Assembly: GCA_017443985.1 (NCBI GenBank)
Contig: JAFSXR010000037.1
Coordinates: forward strand, 1 to 64,000
Source of the DNA: Synergistaceae bacterium
GTDB taxonomy: Bacteria > Synergistota > Synergistia > Synergistales > Aminobacteriaceae
DNA length: 64,000 nucleotides
Direction of reading: 5' to 3'
The position numbers were made by a program, and so were the translations under genes. The notes beneath the pieces were generated by a model. That model was not told the origin of the DNA and made no database searches. It was given only the letters and a program-made list of their open reading frames with translations. Of this stretch, positions 54,781-56,316 are shown one piece after another. Within the stretch, counting starts at the first letter, position 1. Each line of letters starts with the position of its first letter.

Positions 54781-54892
54781 AAAAAATAATACCTCCTGCG
54801 TTTTTTAGAGGGCATTATAACAAAGTTAGGTAGGAGTTAGGAATTAGGAGGCAAGAGTTTTTTCTTCCTGTTTCTTGATTCGATTCGTATAG

Positions 54893-54951
54893 AAAATTTC
54901 CTTTGATATAATGATTTTCACGAGGGGCTCGTCATGGGACACACGGCTCAT
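54893..54951 (+). repeat. 59-base direct repeat, promoter and leader of cassette 1
   Basis: Identical to 55216-55274. Contains TATAAT (54907-54912), then a predicted leader with CGAG/CTCG hairpin, GAGGGG ribosome site and the start of the upstream ORF MGHTAH. ACACGGC here pairs with GCCGTGT 25 bases later, which would enclose most of the upstream ORF. Confidence 0.8.
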
Positions 54952-54987
54952 GTAAACGAGGGAGACCGCCGTGTAGAAATCTGGTGA
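54934..54987 (+). CDS. Upstream leader ORF of cassette 1 (17 residues)
   Basis: ATG at 54934 six bases after GAGGGG. Product MGHTAHVNEGDRRVEIW. Its stop lies six bases before the TTG of the main small protein, which itself has only a weak ribosome site, so expression of the main ORF probably depends on translation of this leader (reinitiation or unfolding). The MGHTAH start is repeated in cassette 2, but the remainder differs. Confidence 0.5.
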   Translation: MGHTAHVNEGDRRVEIW

Positions 54988-54993
54988 ATTAAC

Positions 54994-55137
54994 TTGAGCA
55001 AAAAGCACAAAATCTCCAGACGCAAACAGCGGCACAACCTCCTACGTTTTATTAAGTTGATTGCCGCTGTTCTTCACTGGCTTGTTGACTTTGCCCTCTT
55101 AGCATTTCAGCTTTGGGACAGGATTAATGGTCAGTAA
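54994..55137 (+). CDS. Small basic membrane peptide, cassette 1 (47 residues)
   Basis: TTG start. The N-terminal 18 residues MSKKHKISRRKQRHNLLR are strongly basic, residues 19-40 are hydrophobic, and the end reads AFQLWDRINGQ. The paralogue in cassette 2 has the same plan and the same QLWDR motif, although the nucleotide sequences have diverged, which indicates selection on the protein. An inverted repeat GTGTAA/TTACAC follows, then the shared terminator. Size, charge and leader recall type I toxins, but no family was recognised. Confidence 0.65.
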   Translation: MSKKHKISRRKQRHNLLRFIKLIAAVLHWLVDFALLAFQLWDRINGQ

Positions 55138-55171
55138 ACGTGTGTAATTCGTAGTTACACCGTAATAAAGT

Positions 55172-55211
55172 AGGGAACAACTCCCCTCAATGTTGTCCCT
55201 ATTTTACCACA
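55172..55211. terminator. Terminator of cassette 1
   Basis: GGGAACAAC (55173-55181) pairs with GTTGTCCC (55191-55198) with one bulged A, followed by TATTTTACC. Repeated at 55491-55530. Confidence 0.7.
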
Positions 55212-55215
55212 CTAA

Positions 55216-55274
55216 AAAATTTCCTTTGATATAATGATTTTCACGAGGGGCTCGTCATGGGACACACGGCTCAT
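55216..55274 (+). repeat. 59-base direct repeat, promoter and leader of cassette 2
   Basis: Exact copy of 54893-54951 with TATAAT at 55230-55235. Here the downstream leader folds differently: GAGGAAGTCCTC and ACACGG/CCGTGT. Confidence 0.8.
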
Positions 55275-55298
55275 CAAACGAGGAAGTCCTCCGTGTAG
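55257..55298 (+). CDS. Upstream leader ORF of cassette 2 (13 residues)
   Basis: ATG at 55257 after GAGGGG. Product MGHTAHQTRKSSV. It ends 15 bases before the main ATG, which has its own good GGAG site, so coupling may be weaker than in cassette 1. Confidence 0.45.
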   Translation: MGHTAHQTRKSSV

Positions 55299-55313
55299 AA
55301 TGGAGTGATGTTT

Positions 55314-55454
55314 ATGGCTAATAAGAGCAAACGCTCCAAAGCAAAACGGCGGCAAACTTTCCTCAGGGCGATGAAGAAATTTGCCGCTTTCCTTTTCTGG
55401 CTCGCGAGTTTCCTTCTCACTGTTCTACAACTGTGGGATCGTCTCGTAGGTTAG
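55314..55454 (+). CDS. Small basic membrane peptide, cassette 2 (46 residues)
   Basis: ATG at 55314, eight bases after GGAG. N-terminus MANKSKRSKAKRRQTFLR is highly basic, residues 23-40 form one membrane helix, and the end is LQLWDRLVG. Matches the cassette 1 peptide in the positions of the basic stretch, the Trp near residue 29 and QLWDR at 39-43. Followed by an inverted repeat (CGGGTGTTT/AAACCCG) and the shared terminator. Confidence 0.68.
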   Translation: MANKSKRSKAKRRQTFLRAMKKFAAFLFWLASFLLTVLQLWDRLVG

Positions 55455-55490
55455 TACACGGGTGTTTCTAAACTTTTAAACCCGAATTAG

Positions 55491-55537
55491 AGGGAACAAC
55501 TCCCCTCAATGTTGTCCCTATTTTACCACACTAAAAA
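55491..55537. terminator. Terminator of cassette 2
   Basis: Near-identical to that of cassette 1: GGGAACAAC and GTTGTCCC with TATTTTACC after it. Confidence 0.7.
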
Positions 55538-55599
55538 TTTACAGCCTAAAGTGTTAATATAATCGCAAAGTCTTTATAATTTTTCTGAGGTGATAATTC

Positions 55600-56316
55600 A
55601 TGGGAAAATTTTTCAATAAAATTCGCCAAGTCTTTAATTTATTTTTAATCATGCTTTTAATTGCGGCTGCTACGGCTGTGTTCGCTTATTTTTTGACAAC
55701 GCCTGAGCAGCGCGGAACAACCTTTTGGATTTCGGCAGGCTTTTTAGTTTTTGCTCTCGTGCTTGAAACTTTAATGGCCTCCGGGATTGCCATGCGGTCG
55801 AACGGAGGCAAAGAAATTCCGGCCGGCTTTTCTAAAGTAATTTTAGGCGGAGTTTATTTTCTCTTCGTCATCGTCATGTCCATCGGCAATGCCTTCGCTA
55901 ACTTTTCCGTTACAAAATATATGTTGATTCATGTCGGCGGCCTTGTCGTTTTTCTTGTGCCCATGATAATGATGAACATGGCTTCGCTGAGATTATCAGG
56001 CGCGGACAGAAAAGAACGCGAAGAGGGACGCTTAAATCTTTCATCAATGGCTAACAGAGTCAATTATATTTTTGAGGACATGAAAGCGGCCGGGCTTCCT
56101 AAAGATTCACTTTCACAGCTCGTAAATTTTTCGGAGGCCTTGAGATATTCAGACCCTGCTCCGGCTTCGTCAAAACTTGAAAAAAATTTAGAAGAAGCAG
56201 TGAAGAATTTAGAGACCGCCGCGCAGACGAAGGACATCACGGAAATTTCGCGGGCATTCACAGCCGCAGAGAGAGCCCTCAAAGAGCGCAACGAGTTTGT
56301 AATAAATTCTAAATAA
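55600..56316 (+). CDS. Membrane protein of unknown function
   Basis: 238 residues, family not recognised. Four membrane helices (about 13-33, 44-66, 82-104 and 110-130), then a cytosolic tail of about 100 residues that is helical and charged (KLEKNLEEAVKNLETAAQTK) and may form a coiled coil. TCTGAGGTGA ribosome site. It is followed after 31 bases by the GT10 gene and then capA, so it may belong to a cell-surface unit. Confidence 0.8.
   Translation: MGKFFNKIRQVFNLFLIMLLIAAATAVFAYFLTTPEQRGTTFWISAGFLVFALVLETLMASGIAMRSNGGKEIPAGFSKVILGGVYFLFVIVMSIGNAFANFSVTKYMLIHVGGLVVFLVPMIMMNMASLRLSGADRKEREEGRLNLSSMANRVNYIFEDMKAAGLPKDSLSQLVNFSEALRYSDPAPASSKLEKNLEEAVKNLETAAQTKDITEISRAFTAAERALKERNEFVINSK

Follow-up and report, generated by a model that had tools for sequence, protein, structure and literature searches.

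The window (the whole stretch of 64,000 nucleotides analyzed here), from a gut bacterium of the Synergistota, contains two tandem units, each of them probably a compact toxin-antitoxin module of type I in which the mRNA would close on itself and a predicted antisense RNA arises from the 3′ side. Comparison of homologous units shows conservation of a coding frame, of a pairing between the two ends of the predicted mRNA, of a leader pseudoknot, and of an antisense promoter. The likeness to type I toxins, proposed in a sequence-only reading of this DNA, is supported, and the predicted transcript is of the type I kind, a short mRNA for a small hydrophobic peptide with one helix.

The sequence-only reading had described two units with near-identical ends and diverged middles, which both a direct-repeat search and an alignment of the units bear out. 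A 62-nt repeat (54890-54951 and 55213-55274, spacing 323) and a 50-nt repeat (55172-55221 and 55491-55540, spacing 319) are each 98% identical between copies. Over their whole length the two units are only 73% identical, and, therefore, their middles have diverged. The TATAAT boxes are present as described (54907-54912 and 55230-55235), each with a TG extension. Sense and predicted antisense promoters are both of the extended −10 type without a recognizable −35 element, and a sigma-70 promoter scan that required a −35 element found nothing. The sense RNA would be about 290 nt long, with a predicted 5′ end at ACGAGGGG. The units are not a product of chance, because they recur in other genomes at E-values down to 6.7e-120 and 44 full-length units can be aligned end to end. 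Counts given below out of 43 refer to aligned full-length units of alignment A1. Features of both units are listed in Table 1.

Table 1. Coordinates of observed and predicted features of the two units (positions in the window; CDS, coding sequence).
Feature	Position	Strand	Basis or detail
Unit 1 sense promoter, extended −10 (TGATATAAT)	54904..54912	+	sequence; TNTGNTATAAT kept at columns 2-11 of alignment A1
Unit 2 sense promoter, extended −10 (TGATATAAT)	55227..55235	+	as for unit 1
Unit 1 5′ end, GAGGGG + CUCGU	54922..54932	+	pairs with 55183-55188 (CCCCUC)
Unit 2 5′ end, GAGGGG + CUCGU	55245..55255	+	pairs with 55502-55507
Unit 1 "MGHTAH" leader ORF	54934..54987	+	open here; start, frame, and stop not conserved in 43 units
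Unit 1 leader pseudoknot	54934..54974	+	P2 54934-54938 / 54947-54951; P3 54941-54946 / 54969-54974
Unit 2 leader pseudoknot	55257..55296	+	P2 55257-55261 / 55270-55274; P3 55264-55269 / 55291-55296
Unit 1 leader strand (ACGAGGGAGAC)	54956..54966	+	covaries with loop of CDS hairpin
Unit 1 ribosome site GGTGA	54983..54987	+	near-invariant in alignment A1
Unit 1 peptide (predicted toxin), MSKKHKISRRKQRHNLLRFIKLIAAVLHWLVDFALLAFQLWDRINGQ	54994..55137	+	47 aa; TTG start; end QLWDRINGQ
Unit 2 peptide (predicted toxin), MANKSKRSKAKRRQTFLRAMKKFAAFLFWLASFLLTVLQLWDRLVG	55314..55454	+	46 aa; ATG start; end QLWDRLVG
Unit 1 hairpin inside CDS	55025..55071	.	arms 55025-55034 / 55062-55071; possible antisense terminator
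Unit 2 hairpin inside CDS	55349..55387	.	arms 55349-55356 / 55380-55387
Unit 1 sense terminator hairpin	55173..55199	+	CCCCUC loop 55183-55188; fold z −6.0; covariation z −9.4
Unit 2 sense terminator hairpin	55492..55518	+	CCCCUC loop 55502-55507; alignment A1, covariation, pair counts
Unit 1 predicted antisense promoter, extended −10 (TGGTAAAAT)	55201..55209	-	43/43 units; other genera
Unit 2 predicted antisense promoter, extended −10 (TGGTAAAAT)	55520..55528	-	43/43 units; window count
Unit 1 predicted antisense RNA	55025..55194	-	start approximate, from promoter; 3′ end inferred (CDS hairpin + A-tract)
Unit 2 predicted antisense RNA	55343..55513	-	start approximate; 3′ end predicted on the grounds given for unit 1

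The two peptides described before are both encoded (Table 1), and each of the 43 aligned units keeps an open frame of 44 to 51 codons that begins at one and the same start column, although for two units the frame script chose an alternative start a few bases upstream. Among unit pairs at 70 to 99% identity, this frame has a pN of 0.18 and a pS of 0.50 (pN/pS = 0.37), and its changes at codon positions 1, 2, and 3 number 270, 191, and 444, an excess at position 3. By these comparative measures, the peptide frame is under purifying selection, in agreement with the coding function claimed for a basic one-helix peptide. Homologues that keep the frame of the QLWDR peptides were searched for and found, so that claim stands. 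Peptides of the family are 42 to 51 aa long, with a Lys/Arg-rich start, a "KKQRR"-like block, and one hydrophobic, membrane-spanning stretch with a nearly invariant Trp. The QLWDR motif is present in both window peptides as claimed, but it is no more than the subfamily's version of an end that is looser in the family at large, (L)W-D/E-R/K. Searches of the peptide against Pfam, NCBIfam, PHROGs, PADLOC, and PDB returned nothing beyond single chance matches.

Comparison across subfamilies and genera shows that the 5′ end of the predicted RNA pairs, with covariation, with the loop of the terminator hairpin. Covariation was scored on alignment A1 as the z value of cognate versus permuted duplex energies; for this pairing it is −7.8 overall and −5.4 inside subfamily C alone, where the permutations leave some shared ancestry in and the within-subfamily tests remove part of it. 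Unrelated control windows gave z values of 0.1 to 2.4 in the same test, and permuted partners reached the observed score in 0 of 20,000 trials. Within the pairing, 95.3% of cells are paired, and four of the six pairs have double (compensatory) changes. For all helices together, 84.8% of cells are paired versus 77.9% after shuffling and 88 cells have double changes versus 32.7, while slid structures, a control for the pair counts, are 44 to 56% paired. The end pair occurs as GAGGGG/CCCCUC, GAGGGAG/CUCCCUC, GAGGAGG/CCUCCUC (L062), AGAGGGG/CCCCUCU (L031), and GCGAAGGGAG/CUCCCUUCGC (L048), and other genera have the compensated pairs GAAGGGG/CCCCUUC (L115-L117) and AAGGGG/CCCCUU (L121, L124). At three loci (L050, L051, L054), the pairing is uncompensated. 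Single-sequence folding, a method blind to pseudoknots, recovered only partial end-to-end pairing (mean 0.39 per nt), and the covariance models of Rfam 15 gave only chance matches and a neighboring tRNA.

Covariation also points to a pseudoknot in the leader (P2, z = −8.1; P3, z = −6.7), in which P3 is 94% paired with compensatory changes in all five pairs. The hairpin inside the coding sequence has a z of −9.9, with 88% of cells paired and six of eight pairs compensatory, and a distal helix in the coding sequence has a z of −6.2. Two strands have alternative partners. The CUCGU strand beside the 5′ end can pair with the leader (helix P1) or with the 3′UTR just past the stop codon (z = −4.7 overall and −3.1 inside subfamily R), and the leader strand ACGAGGAAGUC has a possible partner in P1 and another in the coding-sequence hairpin, in the loop (z = −5.5 overall and −4.0, −1.9, and −2.1 inside subfamilies A, R, and C). 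P1 is mutually exclusive with both of these pairings. It was rejected as a firm helix, because its covariation is seen between subfamilies (z = −3.8) and not inside them and because both of its arms have better-supported partners; P1 is possible as a transient helix. The Shine-Dalgarno region has no covarying partner, the terminator loop and the loop of the coding-sequence hairpin having been tried. The simplest reading of these pairings, for which AapA3 is a precedent (PMC6733600), is that the leader would fold first and that the closed full-length fold would form after synthesis of the 3′ end.

The sequence TATTYTAYCACA immediately follows the terminator in each of the 43 units, a few of which have a single change in it. 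Read on the other strand, this is TGTGRTARAAT, an extended −10 box. The antisense −10 motif occurs twice in the window, both times at the expected site, versus 0.03 copies by chance, and 17 of 18 further units match it at 7 to 8 of 8 letters. In genus g25, the antisense −10 is a perfect TGTGNTATAAT, the forward-strand motif being TGTGCTATAAT or TGTGTTATAAT (L115-L118); L119 and L125 have TGGTATAAT, and the motifs of L124 and L129 are weaker. The motif is not just the U-tract of the sense terminator, because in three loci (L043, L048, L030) that tract adjoins the stem directly, whereas the motif, unchanged, comes 10 to 15 nt later. A scan of the 43 aligned units for another conserved reverse-strand promoter, inside the coding region included, found none. 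Given the conserved reverse-strand extended −10, an antisense RNA probably begins inside the sense terminator, with a predicted 5′ end about 7 nt past TAAAAT, and would cover the 3′ half of the mRNA. The antisense RNA, put forward earlier as an inference, thereby gains strong support at the level of sequence. As to its other end, at least 5 A in 8 nt precede the coding-sequence hairpin on the plus strand in 30 of 43 units, and hairpin and A-tract together may act as the antisense terminator, for which they make only a fair candidate. The Lys codons make this region A-rich anyway, which weakens this step, and the terminator scan of the window called no antisense terminator at the hairpin.

We propose that the full-length mRNA would be a closed, stable, and untranslated form. 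Besides the end pairing, the pairings of the 5′ arm with the 3′UTR and of the leader strand with the loop of the coding-sequence hairpin would bring the entire mRNA into the closed form. Loss of the terminator loop through trimming at the 3′ end would free the 5′ end and permit translation. From the other end, the antisense RNA would run from the terminator hairpin through the 3′UTR and the distal half of the coding sequence, displaying GAGGGGAG (GAGGGG) in its own loop against the CCCCUC loop of the sense RNA, and its binding to the mRNA would lead to mRNA decay or silencing. Where the antisense RNA is absent, the peptide would insert into the inner membrane and be toxic.

A more far-reaching reading, which we regard as possible though doubtful, is that a segment of about 300 bp is read both ways with its elements used twice, making up a self-contained new class. 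The sense terminator hairpin would then also be the start of the antisense RNA and the docking site for the 5′ end of the mRNA, and the hairpin in the toxin coding sequence would be both a folding partner of the mRNA and the antisense terminator. Depending on whether their end-pairing codes match, tandem copies would be cross-talking or insulated addiction modules.

The units belong to a multicopy family, with at least eight units in the genome of the window itself. A covariance model (R1), built from the 70-nt leader and searched in this genome and across the order, gave nine matches there: two each on contigs C16 (the window) and C37 and one each on C7, C24, C25, C52, and C76. The C7 copy was also found by a DNA search of the genome, the C52 match is a partial leader, and the C25 copy is apparently frame-disturbed near its start; the copies in this genome have ORFs that are laid out alike. 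The search across the order covered 183 genomes, and an R1 match is present in 39 of the 43 that belong to the same genus. Judged by eye on ORF, terminator loop, and tail, matches in five further genera of the bacterial family (g18, g25, g29, g33, and g34) are units as well; g23 (G084) has a weak R1 match only. Two weak R1 matches outside that bacterial family (L126 in G155 and L128 in G063) lack an ORF, the terminator loop, and the tail and were discarded as false. All named records that bear the terminator are metagenome-assembled genomes of Synergistaceae or Synergistales, from goat, deer, sheep, reindeer, and rumen samples. Viral contigs searched by terminator pattern and plasmids searched by tblastn gave no match.

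Tandem arrays reach five units (L043), and the neighbors of the units are ordinary chromosomal genes. In the window, these are a metH-like gene, identified from its sequence, and the gene of an unknown membrane protein, which lies downstream of the units (55600-56316; 238 aa, no significant Pfam match). Elsewhere, units adjoin a metH-like gene, a sodium symporter, an M17 aminopeptidase, an exonuclease/endonuclease-family gene, a DBI_PRT phosphoribosyltransferase, an AMP-binding enzyme, a TRCF-like helicase, or an MmeI-like enzyme. At L028, the units adjoin the metH-like gene divergently, as in the window, and the gene on the other side differs. At L114 (G000:C52, 1037-1378 and 1656-2999), a unit is flanked on one side by a small ORF that is Phd-like by eye, without a Pfam match, and on the other by an MmeI-type restriction-modification gene.

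Some copies are altered. At L025 (G019:C2:189000-193000, minus strand), the downstream flank of the window is joined to a single chimeric unit, in which QLWDRIIG and a stop are followed by a second frame ending in QLWDRLFG; this is best explained by contraction of an array through recombination between tandem copies. Units at L125 (G106:C173) and L129 (G111:C98, match 735-859) are broken by an insertion of about 55 nt (CTAAGCGATTCGCACAGCTC...CTCTGCTTATG), located within the coding sequence in L125 and between the pseudoknot and the ribosome site in L129, that looks like a small mobile repeat. In addition, truncated units (L035, L040, L045, L049, L058, and L059) keep one or both ends and have lost leader or coding parts; these could be antitoxin-only remnants or decoys.

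The frame and RNA evidence would fit equally well if the peptide were a non-toxic regulator under the same RNA control, modulating a membrane partner or a stress response, and a graded response would be in keeping with as many as nine matches in one genome. We consider this unlikely, given that the peptide is variable apart from its charge, helix, and W-D-R end, which would befit a membrane disruptor more than a binder of a specific partner, and that silencing by a closed mRNA together with an antisense promoter is, to our knowledge, typical of peptides that are harmful when expressed. Leaderless bacteriocins are of comparable size, charge, and helix content, and the units might therefore encode such a secreted peptide on a structured mRNA. 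Yet no immunity or export gene lies in the unit or consistently adjoins it, and we know of no bacteriocin gene with an antisense promoter and a closed mRNA, so that this reading has the faintest chance of being right.

The sequence-only reading had also described leader ORFs beginning with MGHTAH, which are present in the window as stated (MGHTAHVNEGDRRVEIW, 17 codons, and MGHTAHQTRKSSV, 13 codons) but do not hold as a conserved coding feature. It is very improbable that this ORF is translationally coupled to the toxin as mok is to hok, even though both window units have a Shine-Dalgarno-like GAGGGG with an ATG 12 nt on. At the corresponding position, 10 of the 43 units have no start codon, 15 reach a stop before the toxin start, 11 continue into the toxin in its own frame, and 7 pass the toxin start in another frame; a hok/mok-like leader ORF was rejected on this missing conservation, and the coupled reading is largely refuted. 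The letters of the leader are conserved because of the pseudoknot and the end-to-end pairing, ATGRG being the 5′ arm of P2 and GAGGGG the 5′ strand of the helix that joins the two ends. Another reading, a mobile or selfish repeat of the MITE or REP kind with hairpins and a small ORF that are incidental, would account for the many dispersed and tandem copies and for the chimeric and truncated ones. However, the repeat search of the window found no terminal inverted repeats, the peptide is under purifying selection, every helix has compensatory changes, units sit between ordinary genes (beside metH in the window and L028), and the real small insertions break units instead. We give this reading just as little credence as the coupled ORF, and a type I toxin-antitoxin module remains our preferred explanation.

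Among known type I systems, AapA/IsoA of Helicobacter and Campylobacter is similar to the units in many respects. The full-length AapA mRNA is silenced by a 5′-3′ interaction and activated by 3′ trimming, its metastable hairpins are backed by covariation, and IsoA is a cis-antisense RNA (PMC6733600). Both systems have several chromosomal copies, a short mRNA (225 nt for aapA3) for a small peptide, long-distance pairing of the mRNA ends (comparative evidence here, with a different sequence and topology), alternative leader structures backed by covariation, and a cis-overlapping antisense RNA with its own −10 (predicted here). Unlike AapA/IsoA, the units come from another phylum, and their peptide has no Pfam, NCBIfam, or PDB match. 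Their 5′ end has the terminator-hairpin loop as its partner, their leader is a predicted P2/P3 pseudoknot, their predicted antisense promoter lies in the terminator tail and not in the coding region, and their Shine-Dalgarno sequence is not visibly sequestered by a covarying partner.

In Hok/Sok, the mRNA ends fold back on each other and 3′ processing is the trigger (PMC4147584). The units have in common with it a predicted one-helix toxin of about 50 aa, a long structured 5′ leader, and the fold-back of the mRNA ends. Unlike Hok/Sok, they have no mok-like leader ORF, and their predicted antisense RNA lies at the 3′ end and not against a leader ORF. No Hok model was found among the peptide matches to Pfam (19 Hok members) or NCBIfam (6), and peptide models and leader ORF both argue against membership in Hok/Sok. 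In TxpA/RatA, BsrG/SR4, and Fst (RNAI/RNAII) of Firmicutes, an antisense RNA from the 3′ side overlaps the 3′ end of the toxin mRNA (PMC4147584). There the overlap is mainly of the 3′ ends, whereas the predicted antisense RNA of the units runs from the terminator hairpin into the coding sequence, and Pfam and NCBIfam gave no sequence relationship of these toxins to the units' peptide.

According to a paper of 2025, type I systems had until then been described only from Proteobacteria, Firmicutes, and Tenericutes, to which it added MsoT1/MsoA1 of Cyanobacteria (PMC12390103), like the units a recent candidate outside the classical phyla, and from a different phylum. The literature that we searched describes type I systems from just a few phyla and none from Synergistota (Synergistetes). 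The covariation yields predictions at the level of base pairs for a plasmid assay, on a small gene family with many copies per genome that is absent from the protein and RNA family libraries searched. Our best reading of the comparative evidence is a new type I toxin-antitoxin family, which would work like AapA/IsoA and Hok/Sok and, judged by profile and PDB matches, shows kinship to neither. If this is true, a Synergistota family that has a peptide, a promoter grammar, and a leader pseudoknot of its own would be an independent case of the closure logic of AapA and Hok.
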